Source of the DNA: Chloroflexota bacterium
GTDB lineage: Bacteria; Chloroflexota; Anaerolineae; Aggregatilineales; Phototrophicaceae
Direction: 5' to 3'
DNA length: 64,000 nt
NCBI GenBank assembly: GCA_011523705.1
Contig: WTGC01000004.1
Coordinates: 60,633 to 124,632 of the forward strand
A program made the position numbers and the translations under genes. Within the stretch, counting starts at the first letter, position 1. Each line of letters opens with the position of its first letter. Of the stretch, positions 44,549 through 60,158 are shown piece by piece. Below the pieces are notes generated by a model. That model was not told where the DNA came from, made no database searches, and saw only the letters and a program-made list of their open reading frames with translations.

Positions 44549-45340
44549 TTAACGAACGGGCGTCAGCGTCGGCAGCGGATCCGAAATGAAGATATGAACC
44601 ATACATGAGGCTTTGAGCGTGTTGGTGATGTCGAATACCATCAGGCGAAACTGATATTCGCCGGCCTCGTAAGGCGCGGGCACGAATTGGCCAAACTCCG
44701 CCCGCTCTCGAACTTCCGCGTGCTGTTCGTCGATGACTTGAAAACCGCCCAGCGTGCTGGGACCGCTGATCTCAATGGAAGCGTACGAGAATTGATCGGT
44801 GAAGACGGTGCCGATCACCGGTATTGGCTGGAAAACGCGCATGCCATTGCCGGGAATCAGCAATTGAGCTTCCGGTCTGTCGCAGCCTTGGGGCGGGTTG
44901 GACGGAATGATGGTGCCGACCGGCGTGGGCGTCGGCACAGGCGTGGCTTGAATCTGATTGGCCGCGCCGGCTGAGCGCGGCAGGGCGACCGGATCAATGC
45001 CGAGATCCGATGCTGGCGGCGCCGGGACGGGCGTCCGGAAGTCGCCATCGTCCATGCGCGCGCCAGCGACGAGCGCTTCAATCTGGCGGTCTTGCAGCAG
45101 CGCCGGCACGATCACCACTTGCACGCCGGCGACGATGACCGCCAGCTCCAGTAAGAAGATGATCGCGGTGATCGCGTTCGTTCGCCGATAACGCGACAGT
45201 TCGCGTTCCAGTTCAAAATGAGTGGAACGGTATTCTTCCCCATGGATGACATAGCGCCTCAGCGCAAACAAGACGCCAGCGGCAATCAAGAAATAGATGC
45301 CGATGGCGACCTGGTCGATTAGCGCGATAAGGGCTGTCAT
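44549..45340 (-). CDS. Membrane-anchored hypothetical protein with extracytoplasmic domain
   Basis: 263 residues, no family recognised. Two helices (about 4-28 and 55-82) with a short cytoplasmic basic loop (HFELERELSRYRRTNAI) between them; then a Pro/Thr-rich linker (ATPVPTPTPVGTI) and an extracytoplasmic beta-rich domain (LLIPGNGMRVFQPIPVIGTVFTDQFSYASIEISGPS) that looks immunoglobulin-like. The gene begins within the last bases of the nucleoside phosphorylase gene (ATGA overlap). Its function is not evident. Confidence 0.7.
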   Translation of the reverse strand: MTALIALIDQVAIGIYFLIAAGVLFALRRYVIHGEEYRSTHFELERELSRYRRTNAITAIIFLLELAVIVAGVQVVIVPALLQDRQIEALVAGARMDDGDFRTPVPAPPASDLGIDPVALPRSAGAANQIQATPVPTPTPVGTIIPSNPPQGCDRPEAQLLIPGNGMRVFQPIPVIGTVFTDQFSYASIEISGPSTLGGFQVIDEQHAEVRERAEFGQFVPAPYEAGEYQFRLMVFDITNTLKASCMVHIFISDPLPTLTPVR

Positions 45341-46218
45341 ATTGGGAAATTGCTGAGCAGGCCTTTCAGTATCGCAGTGAGGCGCGGGACGATGATCTCG
45401 CCCGCCTCAAGCACTTCCTCATGATTGGTTTCCAGATCGGTGTCGACCGCGTCGATCGTTTGGTTGGTGATGCCGGAGCAGGCCAAAACGCGCATGCCGG
45501 CGTGACGGGCAACCAGCACTTCGTTGACCGTCGACATGCCCACCGCATCGCCGCCCAAAGCGCGGATCATTCTGATTTCCGCCGGCGTCTCGAAGAAGGG
45601 ACCGGACAAGCCGACATAAACGCCGCTATGCAGCGGAATATCATGTTCACGCGCCACTTCCAGCGCCCGCTGCCGAAGCCGCCGGTCATAAGCCTGCGAC
45701 ATGCCGACGAAACGGAGACCGAGCGTCTCGTCGTTAGGACCTATGAGGGGGTTTGCGCCCGCCATCCCGGGCAGATTAATATGATCCTCCAGCAGCATCA
45801 AGTCGCCGACTTGATAGCTTTTGTTCACGCCGCCGGCCGCGTTCGTCAAGAGTACGCTATGAATGCCCAATGCTTTCATCACGCGAATGGGAAAAGTCAC
45901 TTCAGCCATCGAGTAGCCTTCGTAGAAATGGGCGCGCCCCTGCTGGGCGGCGACCATCTGCCCTTCCAATTCGCCGATGACCAGGTTGCCCTGATGCCCT
46001 TCCACGGTGGAAACGGGCCAGCCGGGGATATCGACGTATGGAATGACGACTTTCTCCACTAGCTCGTCAGCCAGCTTGCCCAGTCCGGAGCCCAAGACGA
46101 GCCCGATCGACGGGCGCAAAGATGTGCGCGACTGGACGACCGAAGCGGCGCGCTGAAAGTCGGCTCGACTATACAATTTTTCCTCCCGAATTCGGCTGGG
46201 TCTCGGACTGCCGGCCAT
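45337..46218 (-). CDS. punA: Purine nucleoside phosphorylase (PNP-I, trimeric type)
   Basis: Splits purine nucleosides with phosphate to free bases, supplying the purine pathway. 293 residues. Phosphate-binding GLVLGSGLGKLAD, VEGHQGNLVIGELEG, GRAHFYEGYSMAEVTFPIRVMKALG, TNAAGGVNKSYQVGDLMLLEDHIN, and the base-site segment GPFFETPAEIRMIRALGGDAVGMSTVNEVLVARHAGM. It should provide hypoxanthine or guanine that xanthine dehydrogenase (49.9-55.4 kb) can use after processing (inference). Confidence 0.95.
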   Translation of the reverse strand: MAGSPRPSRIREEKLYSRADFQRAASVVQSRTSLRPSIGLVLGSGLGKLADELVEKVVIPYVDIPGWPVSTVEGHQGNLVIGELEGQMVAAQQGRAHFYEGYSMAEVTFPIRVMKALGIHSVLLTNAAGGVNKSYQVGDLMLLEDHINLPGMAGANPLIGPNDETLGLRFVGMSQAYDRRLRQRALEVAREHDIPLHSGVYVGLSGPFFETPAEIRMIRALGGDAVGMSTVNEVLVARHAGMRVLACSGITNQTIDAVDTDLETNHEEVLEAGEIIVPRLTAILKGLLSNFPI

Positions 46219-46348: not shown

Positions 46349-48421
46349 GTGAACGATCTGCGACGGCAATTTCGCGCCGCTGCGGTTCTCATCTTTATTG
46401 TTGTGCCGATCGGCATCGCCGGCTTCGCCTTTATTGAAGGCATGTCCGTCTTTGACGCGATATATCTGACCATCATCACGCTGACGACCATCGGCTACGG
46501 TGATTTTACGCCAAAGACAGAACTCGGCCGGCTGTTCACGCTGGTGCTTGTCGGCGCTGGGATGAGCGCCCTGCTGTTTTTTCTTTCTTCTTCATTCGCG
46601 CTGCTCTTCAGTTCCGAAGCGATGACCCGCCGGCGTCTCTTCCAGACCCGGAAAAAGATCCGCAAGCTCAACAGCCACTACATTATCTGCGGCACCGGCG
46701 AAATGGTAGACAAGACGATTGGCTACGTTTTGCATGGCGCTGAAATCCGGCGCAAGCAGCACCAGCAGAGCCTCTATCAGCCCATAGAAAATTTGCTGAA
46801 TCGCTTTTTTGGACCGGCGGATCGCGGCCGAATGCTTGTGCTGCGCCGGCTGATTGACCGACTGTTCCTCTTGTACCACCATGTCTTCGTCGATCACGTC
46901 ACCTTGCTCGATTTGTTGGTCGTGGTGACTGACGATGAAGAATATGCCGAGCATCTGCGCGCCGCTGGCATCCTCGTGATTGATGGCGATCCAACAGACG
47001 ATGATGATTTGCTCTCGGCTGGAATCGCGCGGGCGCGGGCCATCATGGTCATGCTCAATCAAGATACCGAAAGCCTGTTGACCGTCTTGACGGCACGCAA
47101 CCTGAACCCGCGGTTATACATCACGGCCGCCGCGGTCGAAGAGGAACTCAAGCTGAAGATGGTCAAGTCCGGCGCTAATGTCGTCCTGGCGCCCTATGAA
47201 GTGGCGGCGCAATTCCTCAACAGCGCCACGCTGCGGCCAGCGGTGAACGACTTTTTCAGCAGCATTCTCTTTGAACAAGATCATCATCACCAGATCACGC
47301 AGCTGGAGTTGGGAGACGACTCGCCCTGGATCGGCCGGCGCATAAACGACCTGTCTCTAAGCGAAAGATACAATGGGGGAATCCTGGGCATACGGCTGGA
47401 ATCGGGCGATTTCGCGCATACGGCCGGCGGGCGGCGCTTCCTGCAAGAAGACGAGATTCTGCTGGTTGTCGCGCCGGGTCCGATGGTCCCTAACCTTCAG
47501 CACGACTGCCGGCCGCAGGGCCGGGACGAGATGCGCTTTGCCAGCTTCCAACGTCTGATCCCGACGCGCGCATCCAAGAGCCTGGATGATGTCTACAGCC
47601 TTGAGGAAAGCGAGGCCGTCATCGAGACGATGGCGAAGCATTTTGTCATCTGCGGCAACGACCATATCATCCAGAGCGCCGTGCGCTTTCTCGATCCGGC
47701 GCGTCCTTTCGTTCTGATCAGTAACGATGTAGAGGTCACCGAACGTTGGCGGCAGCGGGGTTTCCGCGTGATCCATGGCGATCCAGCCCAGGAATCCACG
47801 CTGAAGAAAGCCGGCGTCAAACGGGCGCAGGCGATTATGATCTCGATTCAGGACAAGGCGGCTGCCGTTCTGACCGTATTGTCGGCGCGCACCATCAGCA
47901 AATCGCTGCTGATATCGGTCACAGCCACTACTGACGACATGATCGAAAAGCTGCGGCGGTCTGGCGCTGATCGGGTCGTCAGTCCCTTCCATGTCGCCGC
48001 GCAGTTCGTGCTGCTCTCGACTACGCGACCGGAAATTGCCGATTTCCTGCAGCATGTGCTCTACAACGAAATCACCGGGTTGGAGACGGCCGAACTTTAC
48101 ATGGAAGATGATTCGCCCTGGATCGGCAAGACGATTCGCGAATTGGCTTTGACCATGCGTTATCGCGCCAGCGTCGTTGGCGTTCGCCGCGCCAATCGAA
48201 GGGACTTCCTCTATACGCCGCCGCCCGAACATCTGGTGCGGCCGCAGGAAGTATTGATCGTCATCACGCCGATGGAATTCTTTGATGAAATGCGCGCGAA
48301 CGCCACTGGTCACAAGGACAAACGACCAGCCACCTTGCGACTGGAAGTTGATGTCACCGCCAGCGGCGTCTGGTCAAGAGATATGATCCGCGAGCTGATT
48401 CAGCAGGGGGACAGCGGCTAG
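46349..48421 (+). CDS. Potassium channel with two RCK (TrkA-N/C) domains
   Basis: 690 residues. Two membrane helices (about 10-30 and 60-88) flank the pore loop with the selectivity filter TTIGYGD at 46-52, a two-helix K+ channel like MthK. Two RCK modules follow, each a Rossmann TrkA-N part plus TrkA-C part (GDDSPWIGRRINDLSL and EDDSPWIGKTIRELAL). RCK1 has HYIICGTGEM at 110-119 and is interrupted by an insert of about 55 residues before LLDLLVVVTDDEEYAEHL. RCK2 (about 430-660) starts HFVICGNDHII, without the second glycine of GxGxxG. The start is a GTG. The last four bases overlap the convergent yqeC/mocA gene at a shared CTAG. Confidence 0.92.
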   Translation: MNDLRRQFRAAAVLIFIVVPIGIAGFAFIEGMSVFDAIYLTIITLTTIGYGDFTPKTELGRLFTLVLVGAGMSALLFFLSSSFALLFSSEAMTRRRLFQTRKKIRKLNSHYIICGTGEMVDKTIGYVLHGAEIRRKQHQQSLYQPIENLLNRFFGPADRGRMLVLRRLIDRLFLLYHHVFVDHVTLLDLLVVVTDDEEYAEHLRAAGILVIDGDPTDDDDLLSAGIARARAIMVMLNQDTESLLTVLTARNLNPRLYITAAAVEEELKLKMVKSGANVVLAPYEVAAQFLNSATLRPAVNDFFSSILFEQDHHHQITQLELGDDSPWIGRRINDLSLSERYNGGILGIRLESGDFAHTAGGRRFLQEDEILLVVAPGPMVPNLQHDCRPQGRDEMRFASFQRLIPTRASKSLDDVYSLEESEAVIETMAKHFVICGNDHIIQSAVRFLDPARPFVLISNDVEVTERWRQRGFRVIHGDPAQESTLKKAGVKRAQAIMISIQDKAAAVLTVLSARTISKSLLISVTATTDDMIEKLRRSGADRVVSPFHVAAQFVLLSTTRPEIADFLQHVLYNEITGLETAELYMEDDSPWIGKTIRELALTMRYRASVVGVRRANRRDFLYTPPPEHLVRPQEVLIVITPMEFFDEMRANATGHKDKRPATLRLEVDVTASGVWSRDMIRELIQQGDSG

Positions 48422-49779
48422 CGGCCACGGTTGCTCACGCGCGCGTCTTGGCGGTCCGGCCGATGCAGGGACCGGCGCCCAAAATCATGAAAGATGCTGT
48501 CGCTATCGACATTCAGAAAAGTAATGTCGGCGAGGAAGCGCTGGGCGATGGCGCGAAAATCGCTCTGGCGCGGCATCTTGACAAGATCCTGCCAATAGCG
48601 TTTTCCAATGAGGACCGGGTATCCCGAGCGCATCCGGTAACGGGGGACGATGAAATCGCCATCGCCGCGCGCATAGGCGGCCAAGATGTGATATATCACT
48701 TTCGGTTGCAGGCGCGCCTGATCGCCGGGCACAACCAGCACCGCCGATAGCTGCTCCGGCAGCGCGCGCAGCCCGGCTTTCAGCGCGGTCACCGCCCCGC
48801 CCGCCTGATGCGCCCGATCATGTATCACCTTCACCCCGAGCGGTCTGGTCGCCGCTCGTACTTCAGGCGCCCGCCGGCCGGTGACCAGTCGAATATGATC
48901 AATTCGCGAACGCAGGACTTTTTCAGTAATCTGCGCGACGGCAGCCCGGCCCCGGTCAGAAGGCCGCAGCATCTGGTCTTCGTCTTTGCAGGGCGATTCT
49001 CCAGTGGCCAGCACGAGCGCGCCGACTCGCCGCTGCAATTCAAATACGGGTTCGGCGCCGCGCACCGCGCCCAGCGCGACCGCGTCAATCCGCGCGCTCT
49101 GCAAACTGAGCCTGGCGATCATCCGCGCCCGCCCGCGCATGAATCCGTGTTTGGGCGTCTGATTCAGGTATACAATGACGCGAGCTTCCGGCGGGACGCC
49201 GCGCAAACCGAGCTCTTCATCGCGCAGCACCTGCGCCAGCCAAGGCGATTTGACCGGTGAATTCTCCACGAAACCGTAGCGGGCGATCATCGCCGCCGGG
49301 TTGTAGATATGCTCGTTATCGAGCGGCAAACCCAGAGCGCGGAGCGAAGCGACGGAAATAACAAGCGATGTCTCCAGGGGAATCTGGGGTTCATGCGCCA
49401 GCGGCGCCTTGAAGGGCAAGCCTGCGGCGTCATCCGACTCGACCAGCAGGATATCCGAGTCTACGCTGTCCAGCAGCTGTCTGGTCCATTCGACTGGCGG
49501 GCCGAAAACATAGCCGCTGCGAATCTGCTCATGGAGCAAGACAAACTGGTGCTCGGTCAGCGCTTCCGAGATCGCCTGCGGAGCGGCGCCGGCCGCCATC
49601 GTGCAGGGAAAGAGGTCCAATTGGTCGGTGGAGAGTCTGGTGGTGGTGGTCGCCAAGACGCGCCAGCCGGCTTCGGCCAGCTCATAACCCAAGCTGACCA
49701 TCAGCGATGTTTTGCCGCCCGCGCCAATGAAGGCGACCACATCGCCAGGCGCCAATTCAAAAGCTTGCTCGAATCGCAT
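48418..49779 (-). CDS. YqeC-MocA fusion for molybdenum hydroxylase maturation
   Basis: 453 residues in two parts. Residues 1-230 match YqeC (selenium-dependent hydroxylase accessory family), with P-loop-like VVAFIGAGGKTSLM, ATTTTRLS, LVESDDAAGLPFKAP and ENSPVKSPWLA. Residues about 250-430 match the MocA/MobA nucleotidyltransferase fold, with VLVVPGDQARLQPKVI and GYPVLIG. The usual LAAGxSxRMGxxK nucleotide signature is diverged: LATGESPCKDEDQML lacks the Arg-Met-Gly-Lys part. MocA makes molybdopterin cytosine dinucleotide for xanthine dehydrogenase-type enzymes; here activity is uncertain. The xanthine dehydrogenase Mo subunit gene lies 168 bp upstream on the same strand. Confidence 0.85.
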   Translation of the reverse strand: MRFEQAFELAPGDVVAFIGAGGKTSLMVSLGYELAEAGWRVLATTTTRLSTDQLDLFPCTMAAGAAPQAISEALTEHQFVLLHEQIRSGYVFGPPVEWTRQLLDSVDSDILLVESDDAAGLPFKAPLAHEPQIPLETSLVISVASLRALGLPLDNEHIYNPAAMIARYGFVENSPVKSPWLAQVLRDEELGLRGVPPEARVIVYLNQTPKHGFMRGRARMIARLSLQSARIDAVALGAVRGAEPVFELQRRVGALVLATGESPCKDEDQMLRPSDRGRAAVAQITEKVLRSRIDHIRLVTGRRAPEVRAATRPLGVKVIHDRAHQAGGAVTALKAGLRALPEQLSAVLVVPGDQARLQPKVIYHILAAYARGDGDFIVPRYRMRSGYPVLIGKRYWQDLVKMPRQSDFRAIAQRFLADITFLNVDSDSIFHDFGRRSLHRPDRQDARVSNRGR

Positions 49780-49947: not shown

Positions 49948-52206
49948 TCAGATGGCGCCGATGCCGCGCTCGCGCAGCGCCTTCGCCACCTTTTGCGCGG
50001 TGAATGGCTGGGAATCAATCCAGACGCCAACCGCATCATAAATCGCAGCGGCGATGGCCGGCGCCAGAGGAAGAAAAGGCATTTCGGCCATGCCCCGCAC
50101 GCCCCAGGGTCCGATGGGGTCGGGGTGCTCCAAGATGACGGATTTGATCCGCGGCGGCACATCAAGCGATGTGGGGATCAGATAGGTCGAGAGGAAGGGA
50201 TTGCGTATCCGACCTTGATCGGATACCAGGTATTCCATCAATGCGTAACCTTGCGCCTGCACGATCGCGCCTTCAATCTGCCCCTGCAGTTGCTGCGGAT
50301 TGATGACTTTGCCCACATCGTTGGCGCAGACGACGTCCAGCAGTTGCACTTGCCCGGTCTCAACGTCGACTTCAACCTCGACCGCTTCGGCTACGTAGCC
50401 GTAGGCGAAATTAGGCGTCGCCCGGCCGGTCTCCGGATCGAAGGGCGTCGTCGCTGGCGGATGATACATGAACTCACCCAGAGCCGGGCGCTCTTCATCC
50501 TGCCATTTGCGCAAGGCGATCTCGGCGGCGCCGCGAATGGCGTTGCCGGACATGAAAGTCAGGCGCGAGGCTGAAGCGCTGCCCGCCGACTCGGATGAGG
50601 CGGTGTCGGAGGCGACAATCTCGACCTTGTCGAAGGGCATGCCGACAGCCTCAGCCGCCATTTGACTCAGAGCGGTATGCGCGCCCTGCCCGACATCGGC
50701 GCCGGCGTGATAAAGAATCACCTTTTCGATTTCGGCGCTCCCGCGCAGCTCAATGCCTGCCCAGCAGTGCTCGGGAAAGCCAAAGCTGAAGCCAACATTC
50801 TTGAATCCGCCGGCGATGCCCCGACCGCGGCGCCGGTTTTGATCGGCCGGTTGCGGCGTCGATTGTAGTTTCCAGCCCTGGCCTGAGCGCTGCCACCAAG
50901 ACTCGCGCCCGCAGGCTTCAAATACTTGCGGCATGGTCACACCAGCGGGGAAAGGCGTATCCACGGAGCCGATGCTGCCTTCGCGGATACTGTTCTTCAG
51001 GCGAATCTCGAGCGGATCCAGCTTCAGCGCGGCCGCCAGGCGATTCATCTGCCCTTCGGCCGCGAACAGCGCTTGGGGCGCGCCAAAGCCGCGAAAAGCC
51101 CCCGACGGGATATTGTTGGTGTACACGGTATAGGTATCGACATGGACGTTAGGAATCTCGTAGGGACCGGTGACGGTCAGTTGGGCGTTGCCGAGCACCT
51201 TGTTCGATGTGTAATTGTAAGCGCCGGCATCGCCAATCACTTCGGCCGCGGCGGCGGTCAGCAGGCCGTCTGCGGTCGCGCCCCATTTCGCCCGCACCTT
51301 GATCGGATGCCGTTTGTGATGATAGAGGATGGACTCTTCCCGATTCCATTGAATCTTGATCGGAAGCCGCAGCTTCCAGGCGGCCAGCGCCAGAATGATT
51401 TGCACCGACATATCTTCGCGGCCGCCAAACGCGCCGCCAATGGCGGGATAGATGACGCGCACCTGTTCCGGCGGCAGATCGAGCGCATGATAGATTTGCT
51501 CTTGATCTTCGTGCGTCCACTGGCCCGCGACCAGGACCGTAACGCGATCTTCTTCGTCTATGTAGGCGAGGCCCGCCTCCGGCTGCAGGTAGGCATGTTC
51601 TTGCCAGGTCGTGTCGTATTCGCCTTCCACCACGATATCAGCGGCCGCCCAGCCCGCCTCCATATCGCCGCGGCGAATGCGATAAGTCGTCACCAGATTG
51701 CCCGGATTGTCCGGATGGAGTTGCGGCGCCCCTTCGGTCATCGCCTCTTCCGGATTGAAGACGGCCGGCATATCCTCATATTGCACGTCGATCAGAGCCA
51801 GCGCCTCTTGCGCAATCGCGTCAGTCTCGGCGACGACGGTTGCCACCATATCCATATAACAGCGCACGACGTCGGTACCGGCCTTGTCCCCGCCGGGACC
51901 GCAGAGCACAGGTTGGTCTTTGATCACGAGACCGTATTCATTGACGGGCACGTCGTGGCTGGTGAAGACGCGGGCGACGCCCGGCAAGGCTTCCGCTTGG
52001 CTGGCGTCAACCTGTACGACGCGGGCATGGGCGCGCTCGCTGAACTTGACGCGCATCCACAATTGACCATCGATATTGATGTCGCCGGGATAGAGCGTCT
52101 CGCCCGTAACTTTGCCGCGCGCATCAATGCGCTTGACTGATTCGCTGATGACCTTGGTTTGTTCAGGGATCACGGCGGGAATCCTCGTGAGATCGGCTTC
52201 GCGCAT
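49948..52206 (-). CDS. xdhA: Xanthine dehydrogenase, molybdenum-binding subunit
   Basis: The catalytic subunit of a molybdenum hydroxylase that oxidises hypoxanthine/xanthine or a related heterocycle. 752 residues. An N-terminal aldehyde oxidase/xanthine dehydrogenase a/b domain (RIDARGKVTGETLYPGDINIDGQLWMRVKFSERAHARV), then the Mo cofactor domain with GGAFGGRED, AFRGFGAPQ, GADVGQGAHTALSQMAAEAVG and the C-terminal active-site loop GVRGMAEMPFLPLAPAI, in which the Glu matches the catalytic Glu of the family. Substrate is not proven; AFRGF is xanthine-dehydrogenase-like rather than carbon monoxide dehydrogenase. Preceded by a phosphorylase-like gene. Confidence 0.9.
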   Translation of the reverse strand: MREADLTRIPAVIPEQTKVISESVKRIDARGKVTGETLYPGDINIDGQLWMRVKFSERAHARVVQVDASQAEALPGVARVFTSHDVPVNEYGLVIKDQPVLCGPGGDKAGTDVVRCYMDMVATVVAETDAIAQEALALIDVQYEDMPAVFNPEEAMTEGAPQLHPDNPGNLVTTYRIRRGDMEAGWAAADIVVEGEYDTTWQEHAYLQPEAGLAYIDEEDRVTVLVAGQWTHEDQEQIYHALDLPPEQVRVIYPAIGGAFGGREDMSVQIILALAAWKLRLPIKIQWNREESILYHHKRHPIKVRAKWGATADGLLTAAAAEVIGDAGAYNYTSNKVLGNAQLTVTGPYEIPNVHVDTYTVYTNNIPSGAFRGFGAPQALFAAEGQMNRLAAALKLDPLEIRLKNSIREGSIGSVDTPFPAGVTMPQVFEACGRESWWQRSGQGWKLQSTPQPADQNRRRGRGIAGGFKNVGFSFGFPEHCWAGIELRGSAEIEKVILYHAGADVGQGAHTALSQMAAEAVGMPFDKVEIVASDTASSESAGSASASRLTFMSGNAIRGAAEIALRKWQDEERPALGEFMYHPPATTPFDPETGRATPNFAYGYVAEAVEVEVDVETGQVQLLDVVCANDVGKVINPQQLQGQIEGAIVQAQGYALMEYLVSDQGRIRNPFLSTYLIPTSLDVPPRIKSVILEHPDPIGPWGVRGMAEMPFLPLAPAIAAAIYDAVGVWIDSQPFTAQKVAKALRERGIGAI

Positions 52207-52215
52207 GGACTGACT

Positions 52216-53970
52216 TTAAAGCGCAGGAAGCGCCTCGAAGGTGGTTTCGATCAGTTTTTCCGTCTCGTTGTAAAAGATGCGGCGCAAGATGGCGATGGCG
52301 GCGGCGTAGGTCGGTTCGACGCCGCCGTAACTGAGGCTCCCTGCGCCCAGATTCTGGCCCGTATTCATCGGCTTGTCCGATGCGTAATGCAGGAAACCGA
52401 TATCGAATTTGACCGAATGCAAGTTGACGATCTCGTTCATCGGATGGCGCTGCGGGCGGAAGGCTTCGTAAACCGCCGACAGGTAGGGACCGCCCTCCAT
52501 CTCGATATCGGTGTAGCCTTCTTTGTAGAAGACGCTCATGTAATGGGGATTTTGCAGAAAGGTGCCGAGAACGGTCACCGCCTTCTGATTGTCCAAGACG
52601 TTGCCATGCTGCATATAGCTGCGCACGTGCCGGGCGGTGAAGCAATTTCGGAATAGATAAGTGTTCTGCGAATGTTCGTCGTGAATCACATTGGGAATCA
52701 TCATATCGCCGATGCGGCCATTCAATGTGGCCGCCTTGCCCATGACATAGACGCCATCCAGCCGACCAGCGCCTTGCGAGATGCGGCTCAACAATTCATA
52801 CGAGGCCATGCCCAGGGGATAATCGATATTGATGATGATGGCATTGCTGTGGCGCAAGGGTTCCAGATCATCGGCGCGCCCCAATCGCGGATCAAACCAG
52901 CGCGGCTCAAGCTTGCCCAGCTCGATGACTTGCGTTTCCATTTCGAAGCCATGCTGGCTGGGCACGCGATGGATGCCCAGGCGATTTTCTTCCTTGGCGA
53001 AAACGTGGCGCGCCTGGCTGCCTTGTTCAGACAGATAGCGCCGCAAGACAAAATAAAGGAAGTTGTCCGTGCTCTTGTGATAACTCTCCTTGGTGTCTTC
53101 GTACTCGGTCAGCAGGGATTTCTCTTCGAATGCTTCGATGTAATCAATCAGGCTCTCTTCAAATCGGCGGGCGAATCCGGCGAGCAGGTTAATCAAAGCG
53201 TGGGTATTGCTGGAAACGAAGTAGACCGGACGCTCGCCGGGATCAATCCCGGCCTGCGACAATTCCTCGCAGAGTTCATTCCACCAGGAAGCGGTGGCGC
53301 GCCGATAATCGGCTAGGGAACCGGCGATCAAACGCAGCGACATGCTCTTGCGATGCTCGCGAATATGGAGCAGGTTGTTGACGAAGTCTTCCCCCCATAG
53401 CAAGTGCAGTCGCTTCAAATCGCTCACCCGGATTCGTAGAGCGGCGGCGAGCGCAGCAAAGTCTTCCGCCGGCAGATCGCCCGCCTCGGCGTAGGGCGCC
53501 AGAAGGTCCGAAATATCGGGACTCTGCAGCAGAAAATGCAGTTTGTTCCATTCGATTTGGAAGGCGGTCAATATCGGCGCCAGGTCATCTATATCCGAAC
53601 GGCTGACGACATAAACAGCCAGCGTGCTATCGCCATCGAAATGGGTGCGGCGGCGGCGGCCCGTCGCGAAGACGCGCTGCCAAGCCGCGATATCGCGGTA
53701 ACCGGCGGCGATGAAGGAGCGGTTCATCTGCCCGATTAAGACTTCTTCCGTCTGAATAATGCAAGGCGGCAGACGCAGCGCGCTGTACATCAAGGCGGAC
53801 GCGTCGGGCTCGACAGCGGCGGCGTGCTCATGCAAGGACGAGCGCATCGCCAGATGACTCTCGACCAGGGTTTCGATTTTGATCCCCTCGCTCGAACGCA
53901 ATAGCGAATAATAGGTTCGCATATAGAGTTCGATTTCTTCACTGCCCGTCTTTGGTACCGTTCGGTCCAT
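52216..53970 (-). CDS. Uncharacterized protein with nucleoside phosphorylase-like C-terminus
   Basis: 584 residues with no named function. The N-terminal two-thirds (about 1-330) is helical and unlike anything I recognise. The C-terminal part shows purine/uridine phosphorylase-like features: VYVMGKAATLNGRIGDMMIPNVIHDEHS (GDMMIP at 421-426) and GYTDIEMEGGPYLSAVYEA (EMEGG at 490-494), which resemble the base- and ribose-binding segments of that superfamily. It lies between the two xanthine dehydrogenase genes with gaps of 3 and 9 bp, so a role in the same purine pathway is likely. A phosphorylase or nucleosidase that releases a purine base is the leading guess, but it could be a degenerate, non-catalytic member. 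Confidence 0.8.
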   Translation of the reverse strand: MDRTVPKTGSEEIELYMRTYYSLLRSSEGIKIETLVESHLAMRSSLHEHAAAVEPDASALMYSALRLPPCIIQTEEVLIGQMNRSFIAAGYRDIAAWQRVFATGRRRRTHFDGDSTLAVYVVSRSDIDDLAPILTAFQIEWNKLHFLLQSPDISDLLAPYAEAGDLPAEDFAALAAALRIRVSDLKRLHLLWGEDFVNNLLHIREHRKSMSLRLIAGSLADYRRATASWWNELCEELSQAGIDPGERPVYFVSSNTHALINLLAGFARRFEESLIDYIEAFEEKSLLTEYEDTKESYHKSTDNFLYFVLRRYLSEQGSQARHVFAKEENRLGIHRVPSQHGFEMETQVIELGKLEPRWFDPRLGRADDLEPLRHSNAIIINIDYPLGMASYELLSRISQGAGRLDGVYVMGKAATLNGRIGDMMIPNVIHDEHSQNTYLFRNCFTARHVRSYMQHGNVLDNQKAVTVLGTFLQNPHYMSVFYKEGYTDIEMEGGPYLSAVYEAFRPQRHPMNEIVNLHSVKFDIGFLHYASDKPMNTGQNLGAGSLSYGGVEPTYAAAIAILRRIFYNETEKLIETTFEALPAL

Positions 53971-53973
53971 GAG

Positions 53974-55407
53974 CTAGCCTTGCCTGGCTTCCGCTATCAT
54001 GAGCGCCGCCTGGCGGAAAGCGTCGACGATTTTGTAGTAGCCGGTGCAGCGGCACAAATTGCCGCTGATGCTGTAGTTGATTTGTTCGGTATCGGGCGCG
54101 TCGAATTCGTCGAGCAACTTGGCGCCCGACATGAGAAAACCGGGCGTGCAGTAGCCGCATTGAACGGCCGCCTGATCGATGAAGGCTTTCTGGATCGGAT
54201 GCAGCGTTTCGCCCTTTTGCAAGCCTTCGACCGTGACGATCTCGGCGCCATGCGCGCGCGGGGCATGCACCATGCAAGCCATGACGGCTACGTCATCGAG
54301 AAATACAGTGCACGCACCGCATTCGCCCTCGGCGCAGCCTTCTTTCGTGCCGGGCAGCTTGACATCATCGCGCAGCCAATGAAGTAGCGACTTTTGCTGG
54401 CCCGTCGTAATATTGACATCGACGCCATTCACACAGCTCTTTATCGGCGCCTCCGGCGAATGCGCGATCGACGCCGGCAGGCCGCGCGTGACGATGCCTT
54501 CATCAGCGCCCCAGAGCATCGGCGGCGCCGCGGGAATACTGTCCAGCTGCTCACCTGAGGCCAAGTGGCGCAGGGCGCGCGCGACCAAAATCTTCACCAT
54601 TTCCGCCCGGTATTCGGCGCTGCCGCGCACATCATCGATTGGCTTGACCGACTCGCTAGCCAGCCGTCCGGCTTCGTCGACCGTATCTTCTGTGAGGCAT
54701 TTGCCGTTCAAATGCGCTTCGGCCGCCGGGACGCGCACGATGGTCTCCGCGACGCTGCCCAAGGCGATGCGCGCGTCGCTTGCCCGGCCTGATCCGTCAA
54801 GACGCAGGATGACAGCCGCGTCGACCACGGATATCGCCTGCGCGCGCCGCAAGCCCAGCTTCAGGAATATTCCGTGCTGATCAGCGCCCAATGGCGGAAT
54901 TCGTATCTCGCGCAAAAGCTCATCGGGGCGCAGAACAGTTTGTCGAAAGCCGCTGTAAAAGTCCGCCAGCTTCATCGAGCGCTCGCCCGCGACTGAAGTC
55001 AGCGTGACTTCGGCCTCCAGGGCGATTAGCGGGGTGATGGTGTCATTGGCGGGAGAGGCGGTGATGAGATTGCCGGCGACGGTGGCGCGATTGCGAATCT
55101 GCGGCGCGCCGACTTCCCAGGAGGCTTGCGCCAGGGGCAGCACCCGCTGGCGGATCAGCTCGCTCGCCACGACATGATTATGCGTGACCAGCGGTCCCAG
55201 CACGATCCTGTCGTCCTGCAGCGCAATCTGATCCAGATGCGGTACGCGCGTGATGTCGATCAGCGTCTTGAGCTGCGGATGCTGGCCGCGCTCCATCTCG
55301 ATGATCAAGTCGGTGCCGCCGGCGACAATGCGCGCCGCGCTTCCGTGATCGTTCAGAAGCGCCAAAGCCTCATCGATTGTGCTGACGCTATGGTAGGCTT
55401 CCCACAT
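53974..55407 (-). CDS. Xanthine dehydrogenase FAD subunit fused to 2Fe-2S subunit
   Basis: 477 residues, electron-transfer partner of the Mo subunit. Residues 1-290 are the FAD-binding domain: RIVAGGTDLIIEM, APQIRNRATVAGNLITASPANDTITPLIALEAEV and SGFRQTVLRPDELLREIRIP. Residues about 322-477 are the two 2Fe-2S domains: plant-type cluster GCAEGECGACTVFLDDVAVMAC (about 357) and the second cluster QCGYCTPGFLM..GNLCRCTGYYKIVDA. In most xanthine dehydrogenases the 2Fe-2S part comes before the FAD domain or is a separate gene; here the order is FAD then 2Fe-2S. The start has GGAGGG upstream. Confidence 0.92.
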   Translation of the reverse strand: MWEAYHSVSTIDEALALLNDHGSAARIVAGGTDLIIEMERGQHPQLKTLIDITRVPHLDQIALQDDRIVLGPLVTHNHVVASELIRQRVLPLAQASWEVGAPQIRNRATVAGNLITASPANDTITPLIALEAEVTLTSVAGERSMKLADFYSGFRQTVLRPDELLREIRIPPLGADQHGIFLKLGLRRAQAISVVDAAVILRLDGSGRASDARIALGSVAETIVRVPAAEAHLNGKCLTEDTVDEAGRLASESVKPIDDVRGSAEYRAEMVKILVARALRHLASGEQLDSIPAAPPMLWGADEGIVTRGLPASIAHSPEAPIKSCVNGVDVNITTGQQKSLLHWLRDDVKLPGTKEGCAEGECGACTVFLDDVAVMACMVHAPRAHGAEIVTVEGLQKGETLHPIQKAFIDQAAVQCGYCTPGFLMSGAKLLDEFDAPDTEQINYSISGNLCRCTGYYKIVDAFRQAALMIAEARQG

Positions 55408-55439: not shown

Positions 55440-56054
55440 TCAGCTTAGCGGTTCCAGTTCCAGCACCGTGAACGGGTTAATATTCAGCACGCAGGTGGAT
55501 TCGTATATCGTCCGCACCGTCTTGCGCCGATCCCAGGTATGGACGTGCCCGTGCAGCATGTAGCGGGGCCGAAACCACTTCATGAAATTCAAGAAGCTGT
55601 CAAAGCCGCGGTGGGCGAAATCCCTGCCATCGTGAATATCCCGCGCCGGCGAATGCGTGACAAATAGATCGATGCCGCGCCCGCGCGCCCAGCGATTCCA
55701 CATCACCGCCGGCGCGAAGCCGAGCACCTTGCTGTGCATTTGCGTCTGCGTATATTGAATTTCGCCTCTGTTGTAGCGGATCGAGCCTTCCAAGCCGGCC
55801 ATGATCAATCCGCCATATTCCAGGAGCTGTCCGTGCAGATTGATGCCGCCGGGCGGTTCGTCGTGATAGATCTCATCATGATTGCCGCGGACATAGAACA
55901 GGGGCGCCCCGATGATGCTCGTGATGAAATCGAGGTAATTGGGGCGCATGTCGCCGCAGCTGATAATCATATCGACATCGCTGTATTGGCGGCGCAGATT
56001 GGCCGCATTGTGCAGCTGCGGCATCTCGGTATCGCTAACACAGAGAATCTTCAA
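55440..56054 (-). CDS. Metallophosphoesterase
   Basis: 204 residues, calcineurin-like phosphoesterase fold. Metal-binding motifs: MKILCVSDTEMPQL (a DTE in place of the usual DxH), MIISCGDMRP, FYVRGNHDEIYHDEPPG, LFVTHSPARDIHDG and LHGHVHTWDR. The first motif departs from consensus, but the rest is intact, so it is probably active, with an unknown phosphoester or cyclic-nucleotide substrate. The gene lies 32 bp before the xanthine dehydrogenase genes in the same direction. Confidence 0.85.
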   Translation of the reverse strand: MKILCVSDTEMPQLHNAANLRRQYSDVDMIISCGDMRPNYLDFITSIIGAPLFYVRGNHDEIYHDEPPGGINLHGQLLEYGGLIMAGLEGSIRYNRGEIQYTQTQMHSKVLGFAPAVMWNRWARGRGIDLFVTHSPARDIHDGRDFAHRGFDSFLNFMKWFRPRYMLHGHVHTWDRRKTVRTIYESTCVLNINPFTVLELEPLS

Positions 56055-56106
56055 CGCGACAGGCGCCTTTCCCGCACGGTGTCGAATCAGCGCTGAAAAC
56101 AGTCAA

Positions 56107-57114
56107 CTAGCTCGAATAGCCTCCAGCGAAAGTGTCAATCATAAGGCGCACATCGTCTCCCAGCGGATAGAGGATGGGACAGGTGGCGCCGGCTTCTATG
56201 TATTCGCGCACCTTCGCCTTTACCTCATCGGGCCTGCCGGAAGCGGTGATCATCTGCACGACATCGTCCGGCACCAGCTTCATCGCCTCCAGAATCTGTT
56301 CCTCGGTCGCGGGCCAGGTCAAGACTTGATTGATCTCGTCGAGAAGATCCTGGCTGACGCCGCTGGCTTTCATGATGTGCGGCTGCTGCCCGAGATATTG
56401 CGTCACCAGTTTGCGCGCGCCATCGAGAGCGGCCGCCCGATCATTGTCCACCGAGCAGACGACGAGCTGGGGGCGATCGACTTCGTCAATCGACTTGCCC
56501 GCTTTGCGCGCGCCGATCTCGAGCTGAGCCATCGCCATCTCGTTATATTTGGGCGAGACCAAATAATTGAGCACGGCGCCATCGGCGATTTCGCCGGTCA
56601 GCGCCATCATTTTGGGACCGGTCGCGCCGATGTAAATCGGCACGTTGCGCGGCTCTTTGCGCCCGTGCACCACATCCAGCTCCACATCGTCCATCTGCAC
56701 AAATTCGCCGTCAAAACTGACGCGCTCGCGATTGAGCAGCCGCCGCACGACGGTCACGACTTCGCGCATGGCCAGCAGATTCTTGCGCCGCTGAATGCCG
56801 ACCTTTGCCGCCAGCGGATCCCACCAGGCGCCGACGCCGCAGTAGATGCGGTCCTGCGCCAAGTCATCGAGGGTGAGGAAGGTGGCGGCGATCACGGCGG
56901 CGTTGCGCGTCCAGTTGTTGATCACGCCGGAGCCGATTTTAATGCGCGATGTCACCGCGGCAAAAGCCGCCATCGGCACAATTGCATCGCGGACCAGCCG
57001 GCTCTCGGCTTGCCATACCGCCTCGAAGCCGCATAGCTCGGCGTATTTGACGTATTCGATCGCGTCAGCCAGCGGGTGCGCGTCTTGCAGATACAATGCT
57101 ACACGGTCAGCCAT
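56107..57114 (-). CDS. LLM-class F420-dependent oxidoreductase
   Basis: 335 residues with the luciferase-like monooxygenase TIM-barrel fold. Family segments: [82 protein letters not shown] and [29 protein letters not shown]. This subgroup uses reduced F420 as hydride donor or acceptor (methylenetetrahydromethanopterin reductase-like), and its place beside F420 biosynthesis genes supports that. The substrate is unknown. Confidence 0.88.
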
Positions 57115-57198
57115 GAGTCTTCTCCAGTTTCCGCATCATTCGATTCGTATCATAATATCAGACATTTTGAGCGCATTTATCTCATGAACGCTAGGACC

Positions 57199-57846
57199 TC
57201 AGCCGGCGCTGCAGGCGAGCGGGAAAGACGGCAAATGCCCGAAGCTACCGCTCGAAAGGATTCGCTGATAGGTCTCGAGATCTTCCGGCAAATCAATATC
57301 CAGCGCCAGCCGCTCGGATTCGTAGGTGAAGGCTTGCAGCCCGGCCGCCTCCGCGAGCCGAATATGCCGTTCAAAACTGCCGCCGCCGTATTCAAACTCG
57401 ATCGCGCCCGGCGGCTTGACCAGCAAGGCATTCGTGCCGTCGCGCGCCTTGTCGGGGGCGATCACAATCGACCGATCGAGCGCCAGCCGAATGAGGCCGT
57501 GGATATCTTCCGCATTGATGAAGGGCAAATCGGCCGGCAAGACCAGCACGGCGTCGGCGCGCCAGCTCTCCACGACCAAAGTAGCGCGCATCAATGCCGG
57601 ATTCAGATTGGACATGGCGCCTTCTTGCAGCGTTTTGGCGCCCATCTCGCGGGCGATGGCGAGCGCCTTGGTATCGCGCGAGATCACCAGGACACCGGTG
57701 ATTTGCTGAATCGCCGTCGTCACCGTCAAGACATGGCGCAGCATGGCCTGCGCCAATTCAAAGCGCTGATCGGGCGATAGGACCGGCGACAGGCGGCTCT
57801 TGGCGTTCTTGAGCGGTTTGACCGGGAGAATCGCCCAGAGGCTCAT
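57199..57846 (-). CDS. cofC: 2-phospho-lactate/PEP guanylyltransferase (CofC/FbiD)
   Basis: Activates phosphoenolpyruvate or 2-phospholactate with GTP for F420 synthesis. 215 residues. MobA-like nucleotidyltransferase N-terminus MSLWAILPVKPLKNAKSRLSPVLS, a VLVLPADLPF metal-binding segment, and GTNALLVKPPGAIEFEYGGGSFERH. ATG 57846 overlaps the cofD stop as ATGA, which fixes the start. In bacteria PEP is usually the substrate (FbiD), but this cannot be told from sequence alone. Confidence 0.93.
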   Translation of the reverse strand: MSLWAILPVKPLKNAKSRLSPVLSPDQRFELAQAMLRHVLTVTTAIQQITGVLVISRDTKALAIAREMGAKTLQEGAMSNLNPALMRATLVVESWRADAVLVLPADLPFINAEDIHGLIRLALDRSIVIAPDKARDGTNALLVKPPGAIEFEYGGGSFERHIRLAEAAGLQAFTYESERLALDIDLPEDLETYQRILSSGSFGHLPSFPLACSAG

Positions 57847-58787
57847 AAAGCCCAACCCCCGATCCAGCCCAGCAAAGCGCGCGCCAGGGCGACCTTGTCC
57901 GCCTGGTCATTCATCAGCGTATTCAACTGAACGGTGCGCAGGCCGCTCATCTCAAATGGCTCATTGCGCCGATCATCGACAAATCCATCGATGAGTCCGC
58001 CATAGAAGCGAGCCACTTCCCGAGCCGAAACCTCCAGCCCCAACTCGCGCATGATCTTCGCCGTCGGCCCCTTGACCGCGTCGCCGGCGATGATCGGCGT
58101 CACCGCGACCACCGGCGCCGCCAAAAGCGCCAGCATATTGCGCAAGCCCGGCACCGCCAGAATCGGCGCCAGCGACAGCCAGGGATTGGAAGGCGCGATC
58201 AAGACGATGTCAGCGTCGCAGAGCGCCCCGGCGACGACCGGCGAAAGCCTGGCTCTCTCGCAACCGTGATGGCGGATCGCCCGAATCGCCGGTTCCCAAG
58301 CGTATTTCACGAAATACTCCTGAAAGCCAAGTTCGCCGCGCTCGACCGTATCAACCATCGTCGGCATTTCTTCGTCGCACATCGGCAAAATCGTCGCGCG
58401 CAGGCCGAGTCGTGCGCCGAGGCAGGCGGTCACCTCCGTAAGGCTGTGCCCCAGCCGAAGCCAATGCGTTCTCAACAAATGCGTCGCCAGATCTTTATCG
58501 CCCAGCCGGAACCATGGCTCAACCTGAAAATGTCTCGCAAGACTGTCCAAAGCGGCAGTCGAATCATTCACGACGCCCCAGCCCCGTTCTCGATTGACCA
58601 AACCAGCCAGCGTATACATCAGCGTATCGAGATCGGGACAGATTTTCAAACCAAGATGCCAGAAGTCGTCGCCGGTATTGACGATGAATGTCAGTCGTTC
58701 CGGCGGGACCGCCTCGACCAGCCCGCTGGCCAATTTGGCGCCGCCGACCCCGCCAATCAAGACCGCGATCTTCTTGTCTAGCGCCAC
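57843..58787 (-). CDS. cofD: F420 biosynthesis transferase CofD/FbiA
   Basis: Transfers the activated phospho-lactate or phosphoenolpyruvate moiety onto the deazaflavin Fo. 314 residues. The GTG start at 58787 gives the family N-terminus ALDKKIAVLIGGVGGAKLASGLVEAV; an upstream in-frame extension would be Arg/Ala-rich and unlike the family. Signatures FIVNTGDDFWHLGLKICPDLDTLMYTLAG and IAPSNPWLSLAPILAVPGLR are intact. The start lies in the last ten bases of the nitroreductase gene and the end overlaps cofC. Confidence 0.94.
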   Translation of the reverse strand: MALDKKIAVLIGGVGGAKLASGLVEAVPPERLTFIVNTGDDFWHLGLKICPDLDTLMYTLAGLVNRERGWGVVNDSTAALDSLARHFQVEPWFRLGDKDLATHLLRTHWLRLGHSLTEVTACLGARLGLRATILPMCDEEMPTMVDTVERGELGFQEYFVKYAWEPAIRAIRHHGCERARLSPVVAGALCDADIVLIAPSNPWLSLAPILAVPGLRNMLALLAAPVVAVTPIIAGDAVKGPTAKIMRELGLEVSAREVARFYGGLIDGFVDDRRNEPFEMSGLRTVQLNTLMNDQADKVALARALLGWIGGWAL

Positions 58788-59383
58788 AATACTCTCGTCT
58801 CCCAGGGCTCGCGGCTGCGTTCTCGCCGCTCGGCCGGGTAGCCCAGCGTGATCATGCCTTGAGGCTGCCAGTCGGCCGGCAACTCGAGGACCGAAACGAC
58901 CAAATCTTGACAGAATAAGGGCGCGCACATCCAGCAGGCGCCCAGCCCAAGTTTTTCCGCCATTAGGAGCATGTTCTGGCCCGCCATCGCTGTGCTCTGC
59001 TGCGCCATTGCGCGCTCATGACTGCTGCGTTCATTGTCAGAATATACATCCATATCGCTCAGGCTCGTGCAAAGCAGGATCAATAGCGGCGCCGAGGTAA
59101 TTCGAGCGTAGGAGCGGCCGACATCGGCTTCAATGACTGCCGGCGCCAGACCGTCAGCGCTGAGATCGCGCCGCAGCGCCGCCCCCATCGCGCGCGCCAG
59201 CCGCTCTTTTGTCTCATTCTCATCAATGACGACAAAGCGCCAGGGCTGCCGATTGTGGGCGGAAGGCGCCCAGATAGCGGCATCCAGCAAACTTTCGATC
59301 CAGGCGCGCGGCACGCGGTCAACTTGATAGCGCCGCACGGACCGGCGACCGCGCATGAAATCCAGCAGTTCAGTCGCGTTCAT
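58778..59383 (-). CDS. Nitroreductase-family protein in the F420 operon (FbiB C-domain type)
   Basis: 201 residues, FMN-binding nitroreductase fold: LLDFMRGRRSVRRYQVDRVPRAWIESLLDAAIWAPSAHNRQPWRFVVI and MAEKLGLGACWMCAPLF. In mycobacteria a homologous domain is fused to CofE as FbiB and acts on the F420 precursor; here it is a free protein between cofE and cofD. That place suggests reduction of dehydro-F420. ATG 59383 is preferred because it lies just after the cofE stop and matches the family start; a longer ATG at 59407 exists. Confidence 0.88.
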   Translation of the reverse strand: MNATELLDFMRGRRSVRRYQVDRVPRAWIESLLDAAIWAPSAHNRQPWRFVVIDENETKERLARAMGAALRRDLSADGLAPAVIEADVGRSYARITSAPLLILLCTSLSDMDVYSDNERSSHERAMAQQSTAMAGQNMLLMAEKLGLGACWMCAPLFCQDLVVSVLELPADWQPQGMITLGYPAERRERSREPWETRVLWR

Positions 59384-59390
59384 CACCGGC

Positions 59391-60158
59391 TCAACGATAC
59401 AAATCATGCTCGGCGGCGCGATTCAAATCGGCGGCGCGGCCATGTGGCGCTTCCAAATCCAGGCCGCGCAGCAATACCGCCGGCAAGCCCTCATCGGCTT
59501 CGCCACAGAGCAAGTGCGCCGCTGAAGCGACCAGATCGGCGTAGGCGACTTGCGTCACCTCCAGCACGCGTCCGTAGAGATCGCGTTTTCCGCGCAGGTC
59601 TTTCACTGCGGGCAAACCGGCCGCCCCGATCGCCACGCCCACATTGCCGACGCGGAATGGACGCCCGTGCGTATCGCTGATGATAATGGCCAGGTCGATC
59701 CCGAGCCGCCGTCGAATGCTGGCGCGAAAATCGCTGGCGGCGCCATCCGGATCGATCGGCAGCAGCAGCGCCATATCATCGCCCATTTCGATATTGCTTT
59801 GGTCGACGCCGGCGTTGGCCGAGACCATCCCCAAGTGATGCTCAGTAACTAACACGCCCAGTCGTTTGCGAGAAACGCGCCGCGACTGGCGCAAGATCAA
59901 TTCCACCAGCCGCGGATCTTTGCCCGTCTCGCCGGCCACAGTCTCAGCCTCGACCGATGGTTTAATGCCATCTAAAGCCACCACTCTTCCGCGAGACTTG
60001 GATACGATTTTGGATGAGATGACCAGGGTGTCGCCGGCGCGGAGCTCTATGCCGGCCGCCGCCGCGCGGTCGATGATGATCGCAATGATATCGTCATCGG
60101 CTTTGATCAGCGGGATGCCTGGAATCGCGTAGGCGATCAGTTTGGGCGCGCAAGTCAT
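59391..60158 (-). CDS. cofE: F420-0:gamma-glutamyl ligase CofE
   Basis: Adds glutamate residues to F420-0 using GTP. 255 residues: IPGIPLIKADDDIIAIIIDR, GDTLVISSKIVSKSRGRVV, RLGVLVTEHHLGMVSANAGVDQSNI and LAIIISDTHGRPFRVGNVGVAIGAAGLPAVKDLRGKRDLYGR. All are CofE signatures. The stop and start overlaps (ATGA with the reductase gene, 7 bp from the nitroreductase gene) make a tight operon. Confidence 0.96.
   Translation of the reverse strand: MTCAPKLIAYAIPGIPLIKADDDIIAIIIDRAAAAGIELRAGDTLVISSKIVSKSRGRVVALDGIKPSVEAETVAGETGKDPRLVELILRQSRRVSRKRLGVLVTEHHLGMVSANAGVDQSNIEMGDDMALLLPIDPDGAASDFRASIRRRLGIDLAIIISDTHGRPFRVGNVGVAIGAAGLPAVKDLRGKRDLYGRVLEVTQVAYADLVASAAHLLCGEADEGLPAVLLRGLDLEAPHGRAADLNRAAEHDLYR

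Follow-up and report, generated by a model that had tools for sequence, protein, structure and literature searches.

A DUF6909 protein with a predicted NP-I fold is encoded between the subunit genes of a purine-type molybdenum hydroxylase in Anaerolineae

The DUF6909 protein encoded between two subunit genes of a molybdenum hydroxylase in the window, i.e., the whole stretch of 64,000 nucleotides of Chloroflexota DNA analyzed here, is best viewed as a member of a divergent branch within the nucleoside phosphorylase-I (NP-I) superfamily, and it probably works in an AMP-nucleosidase-like manner. We put at roughly 0.6 the probability that it is an NP-I hydrolase of a purine nucleotide or nucleoside that feeds the hydroxylase where the two are linked in an operon, and serves general turnover elsewhere. 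DUF6909 (PF21850) is a family without assigned function, and a literature search returned nothing relevant on it or on a coupling of base release to a hydroxylase; the NP-I placement, the invariant catalytic residues and the missing phosphorylase site together point to a specific activity that can be assayed. Should its product feed the hydroxylase, a single operon would encode both base release and base oxidation, in bacteria for which metagenomes are almost the only source of knowledge.

The gene has an ATG start, encodes 584 amino acids and is present as a single copy in its own 4.7-Mb genome. The fused FAD/2Fe-2S gene upstream is 3 bp away and the Mo-subunit gene downstream 9 bp away, the same gaps that the original prediction had given. 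The operon comprises:

53974–55407, minus strand: fused FAD and 2Fe-2S subunit (Pfam FAD_binding_5, CO_deh_flav_C, Fer2 and Fer2_2)
52216–53970, minus strand: DUF6909 protein (PF21850), predicted NP-I-fold N-glycosidic enzyme (Pfam and AlphaFold)
49948–52206, minus strand: molybdopterin-binding (Mo) subunit with purine-type Glu and Arg (Pfam, phmmer against bovine xanthine oxidase, motif census)
48418–49779, minus strand: fused YqeC-MocA maturation factor (TIGR03172 over its cut-off; MobA-like domain)

The Pfam match to PF21850 (E = 1.1e-213; 710.9 bits, exceeding the gathering threshold of 27 bits) covers protein residues 32–566 and profile positions 1–534 of 535. No NCBIfam model matched the window protein, no solved structure in the PDB was matched by sequence with phmmer or a profile search, and a match to Collagen_bind_2 (E = 0.006, under the cut-off) was dismissed as noise. 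Bacillus subtilis puc and Escherichia coli xdhABC resemble the window operon in encoding Mo, FAD and 2Fe-2S subunits together with a MocA-type maturation gene, but differ in that the window operon has a fused FAD-2Fe-2S subunit and a predicted NP-I-fold gene between the subunit genes. YqeC and the MocA-type nucleotidyltransferase form one protein of 453 amino acids, encoded directly downstream of the Mo-subunit gene.

A full-length AlphaFold model built from an alignment of 65 relatives has a pLDDT of 87.4 and a pTM of 0.88. A Foldseek search of the PDB gave E values down to 2e-7; among its five best matches, four, including the top one, are AMP nucleosidase chains, and the further rows listed contain MTA/SAH nucleosidases, uridine phosphorylases, purine nucleoside phosphorylases (PNPs) and one methylthioadenosine phosphorylase. 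With VIA-align, the NP-I rows overall reach Z 15.5–16.4 over 207–240 residues; on residues 226–570 of the predicted model, hexameric PNPs (Z 16.4, 216 residues, 2.9 Å) and E. coli AMP nucleosidase 1t8s (Z 15.8, 225 residues, 3.3 Å) are tied within 1 Z. A predicted NP-I fold is well supported for the C-terminal ~350 residues, and the protein divides as follows:

53296–53970, minus strand: N-terminal domain, residues 1–225, possible degenerate second NP-I copy (separate model, VIA rows)
52249–53295, minus strand: C-terminal NP-I domain, residues ~226–574 (VIA-align)

The kinship to phosphorylases and AMP nucleosidase that had first been read from two motifs is thus backed by structure prediction, which returned an NP-I fold and not an unrelated one, and by invariant catalytic residues. 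The accompanying claim that the first 330 residues are unlike any phosphorylase needs correction in one detail: the likeness begins near residue 226, about 100 residues earlier. The PF01048 profile matched none of the 65 members at E ≤ 10, its cut-off being a sequence criterion that does not define the NP-I superfamily. A Pfam search of the 65 members found no AMNp_N domain (PF10423), the NCBIfam AMP nucleosidase models matched none of nine diverse members, and hhalign comparisons with AMP nucleosidases, DeoD, MTAN and Udp were not significant. Because these sequence-based tests for AMP nucleosidase failed, we refer to DUF6909 as a new NP-I branch and not as an AMP nucleosidase proper. A common fold does not by itself show function, and the candidate active-site motifs were compared with those of characterized enzymes:

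53200–53214, minus strand: S253-S-N255-T-H257, end of the first strand of the NP-I domain (S253, N255 and H257 invariant, n = 65)
52705–52740, minus strand: G411-K412-AATLNGRI-G421-D422, nucleobase/phosphate loop (Lys in place of PNP Ser90, no Arg87)
52489–52503, minus strand: E490-M491-E492-G-G, ribose/base motif (E-M-E in MTAN, M404-E405 in AMP nucleosidase; M491 and E492 invariant)
52369–52380, minus strand: S531-D532-K-P, catalytic Asp motif (S427-D428-K-P in AMP nucleosidase; D532 and P534 invariant)

In Klebsiella AMP nucleosidase, the base and sugar residues are N205, M404, E405 and D428, and a mobile active-site loop carries K436 (PMC9584410). Motif alignment pairs N255 with N205, M491-E492 with M404-E405 and D532 with D428, these equivalences being derived from motif order and aligned ranges and not from residue-level superposition on the model coordinates. 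All four residues are identical in 65/65 relatives and are also kept in a 25%-identical homologue from Persicobacter (Bacteroidota). SDKP at the catalytic Asp is common to E. coli AMP nucleosidase (Amn) and the window protein, and the register of the G411–D422 loop was also returned by hhalign against AMP nucleosidases, albeit without significance. The two segments that had prompted the comparison with phosphorylases, GDMMIP (residues 421–426) and EMEGG (490–494), are present as claimed, and they are not chance resemblances, since the GD pair, M491 and E492 are invariant in the 65 relatives and the C-terminal 350 residues are predicted to be NP-I. Conservation of the catalytic positions even in distant members, and the location of most DUF6909 genes away from any hydroxylase, also make it highly improbable that the protein is a catalytically dead NP-I relative acting as an assembly or regulatory partner of the hydroxylase, an explanation for which the insertion of the gene between two structural subunit genes, at distances of 3 and 9 bp, would otherwise speak.

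The phosphate site separates DUF6909 from the phosphorylases. The Arg87/Ser90 site of E. coli PNP is absent from the 65 aligned members, in which position 409 (Arg87) is V, I, A, L or S and position 412 (Ser90) is invariably Lys (K412); Bacteroidota AMP nucleosidases have GK at the site of K412. With these canonical phosphate residues missing, the protein is more likely to be a nucleosidase than a phosphorylase. A true phosphorylase, converting a nucleoside (inosine, xanthosine or guanosine) to the base and ribose-1-phosphate, would have to have re-invented its phosphate site from K412, H257 or the N-terminal R105–R107, the last in the manner of Arg43 from an adjacent subunit. Such residues are on hand, all being invariant and basic, and hexameric PNPs provide the best VIA-align rows, in a tie with AMP nucleosidase; we nevertheless regard this explanation as unlikely, given the loss of the Arg87/Ser90 pair and the presence of an ordinary PNP gene in the window (45337–46218, minus strand), which is one of two PF01048 genes in the genome and with the other one would already cover phosphorylase activity. 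The nucleosidase reading is further favored by the genome itself, in which no AMNp_N AMP nucleosidase was found.

Amn (PDB codes 1t8s, 2guw and 7uwq) and DUF6909 share an NP-I catalytic domain that follows an extra N-terminal domain, an Asn on strand 1 (N205 in Amn), the M404-E405 and S-D-K-P motifs, a mobile loop behind the catalytic Asp and the lack of the phosphorylase Arg, to which the GK of Bacteroidota Amn may be added. In DUF6909 the corresponding loop is predicted at residues 537–547 (pLDDT <50), where AMP nucleosidase has its mobile K436 loop, and position 537 is K or R in 50/65 members and T in the window protein. DUF6909 differs from Amn in having no detectable sequence homology to it, no AMNp_N by Pfam, a different set of invariant residues and a helical insertion (~266–330) in the NP-I domain, and the R381/W383 pair is not recognizable; no confident counterpart was found in DUF6909 for the AMP nucleosidase 5′-phosphate residues R381, K436, H188 and Y189. 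Hexameric purine nucleoside and uridine phosphorylases and MTA/SAH nucleosidase share with it the NP-I fold (Z up to 16.4), the G..G..GD loop, the M-E motif and the catalytic S-D, whereas DUF6909 lacks the Arg87/Ser90 site, is twice as long and is only ~8–12% identical over the aligned domain.

As judged from the sequence comparison, K412 and the AMP-nucleosidase-like residues and loop make a 5′-phosphate substrate plausible. In the AMP-nucleosidase-like mechanism that we propose, M491 and E492 would hold the ribose, D532 would assist at purine N7, and water, not phosphate, would attack C1′, with the 5′-phosphate bound by K412 and other invariant basic residues. Where the operon is present, the co-expressed purine-type hydroxylase would receive the released base and oxidize it; in lineages without the operon, the same enzyme would act in general purine salvage or turnover.

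The N-terminal domain, modeled alone, reaches a pLDDT of 90. Foldseek returned no match for it under E 0.48, although NP-I enzymes account for 22/50 of the rows listed, and they fill 43/50 of the rows listed by VIA, at Z of only 2.1–3.9, most of these aligning model residues ~61–225 with the N-terminal ~160 residues of phosphorylases. The make-up of these weak rows suggests that the domain may be a decayed second NP-I copy; no significant similarity was detected between the N- and C-terminal halves of the window protein. One further element of the domain is

53650–53658, minus strand: R105-R106-R107, N-terminal domain (invariant, n = 65, also in the Bacteroidota homologue)

In hexameric phosphorylases an Arg (Arg43 in E. 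coli PNP) reaches the phosphate site of the neighboring subunit, and by eye R105–R107 would lie near the position of Arg43. It is conceivable, if doubtful, that DUF6909 is a duplicated NP-I enzyme whose decayed N-terminal copy serves as a built-in neighboring subunit, with R105–R107 in the role of Arg43, and that it is a nucleotide N-ribohydrolase passing hypoxanthine or xanthine to the co-expressed hydroxylase as one operon-encoded unit.

The proposed hand-over depends on the nature of the hydroxylase. Bovine xanthine oxidase binds purines with E802 and R880. Its FGGKE and AFRGFG segments align by phmmer with FGGRE and AFRGFG in the Mo subunit, which has Glu and Arg at the positions of E802 and R880, the first of which is occupied by Leu in nicotinate dehydrogenase; GAFGGRED occurs in 61/71 of the Mo-subunit genes found in the loci examined. 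Among solved relatives the Mo subunit is by sequence closest to nicotinate dehydrogenase, followed by 4-hydroxybenzoyl-CoA reductase, aldehyde oxidoreductase and xanthine oxidase. None of the NCBIfam xanthine dehydrogenase equivalogs is over its cut-off (TIGR03196 reaches 578 of 784 bits, the others less), and "purine-type molybdenum hydroxylase" is therefore the limit of assignment by sequence. The purine-type Glu and Arg make it plausible that base release feeds the hydroxylase. The genome encodes several further hydroxylases of this kind.

Linkage to the hydroxylase was assessed at three levels. Among 62 well-flanked loci from the 80 nearest relatives, a sample biased to close kin, DUF6909 has both subunit genes nearby in 52, the FAD/FeS gene only in four, the Mo gene only in one and neither in five. 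The gene order is still intact in relatives with only ~52% identity, in which flanking genes have disappeared. In a more even sample of 199 Anaerolineae genomes, DUF6909 is present in 59 and, by contig and position, lies beside the FAD/FeS gene in 12 of these, from four families (f1, f93, f134 and f10); a FAD/FeS homologue (E ≤ 1e-60) is encoded in 46/59 genomes with DUF6909 and 79/140 without it, as raw counts uncorrected for kinship and broken contigs. DUF6909 occurs in 140/400 genomes across Chloroflexota, about a third, and in the loci examined outside Anaerolineae the hydroxylase is almost never near the gene, which mostly stands alone. For most of the family it thus holds that DUF6909 is never near a molybdenum hydroxylase, the finding that was to count against the predicted coupling, with the linked Anaerolineae as the exception.

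The notion that DUF6909 is an obligate hydroxylase subunit was rejected, as most genes of the family lie away from a hydroxylase. The coupling of base release to the dehydrogenase, as originally envisaged, fits the operon and the purine-type Mo residues, but our data do not support an obligate link: with 47/59 DUF6909-bearing genomes of the class and nearly all outside loci unlinked, it could only be a special role, confined to certain lineages, of an enzyme with a more general function. Such coupling is plausible in several Anaerolineae families and cannot be the general role of the family.

Except for a translin/TRAX-like RNase gene, no conserved partner was found outside hydroxylase operons. 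This gene directly adjoins DUF6909 on the same strand at five loci from two Chloroflexota families outside Anaerolineae, lying upstream of it in one and downstream of it in the second:

L133:6258–6911, TRAX-like gene
L212:6307–6966, TRAX-like gene
L221:8703–9419, TRAX-like gene
L145:8698–9366, TRAX-like gene
L146:6289–7005, TRAX-like gene

The proteins match archaeal AfTrax (3zc1) with E values of 9e-18 and 2e-21, and TRAX homologues occur in 220/400 Chloroflexota genomes.

These distributions bear on the choice of substrate. Residues invariant only within DUF6909 are numerous (D383-Y384-P385, D431-E432 and D460-N461-Q462 among them), and the substrate may therefore be something other than a purine nucleotide or nucleoside. 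It would then come from beyond the common purine pool (modified nucleosides, nucleotide sugars, cofactors or signals), and the hydroxylase operon would reflect incidental co-regulation. The small share of linked genomes in the class, the solitary gene in most other families and the frequency of hydroxylases in genomes lacking DUF6909 are in keeping with this explanation, yet we consider it rather improbable, as the gene order persists to ~52% identity though flanking genes disappear, and the other recurring neighbor, TRAX, is likewise a nucleic-acid enzyme. The AMP-nucleosidase-like hydrolase remains our preferred assignment.

Beyond Chloroflexota, a plasmid search returned only Persicobacter, where the 25%-identical homologue (L152:9020–10705, plasmid pPP3) resides on Bacteroidota megaplasmids and no molybdenum hydroxylase is annotated within 10 kb; a phage search gave no DUF6909 match. 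In more distant Anaerolineae operons (L042 and L054), a protein of ~120–135 amino acids with apparent membrane helices is often encoded between the FAD/FeS gene and DUF6909. The SelD gene of the window's genome (C199:35461–36396) carries an in-frame TGA within its catalytic motif (CAG*ASKL), the arrangement known from selenocysteine-containing SelD. With YqeC-MocA encoded beside the hydroxylase, one may ask whether the latter is selenium-dependent, but YqeB was sought in the genome and not found. The ordinary PNP gene of the window lies ~2.2 kb downstream of the last gene of the hydroxylase operon, with an oppositely oriented potassium-channel/TrkA gene in between. Upstream of the operon, 55440–60158 (minus strand) encodes a metallophosphoesterase, a Mer-like F420-dependent oxidoreductase and, further on, CofC, CofD, an FbiB-C-terminal-like nitroreductase and CofE, an F420 biosynthesis cluster that stays beside the hydroxylase operon in close relatives and is lost in more distant ones.
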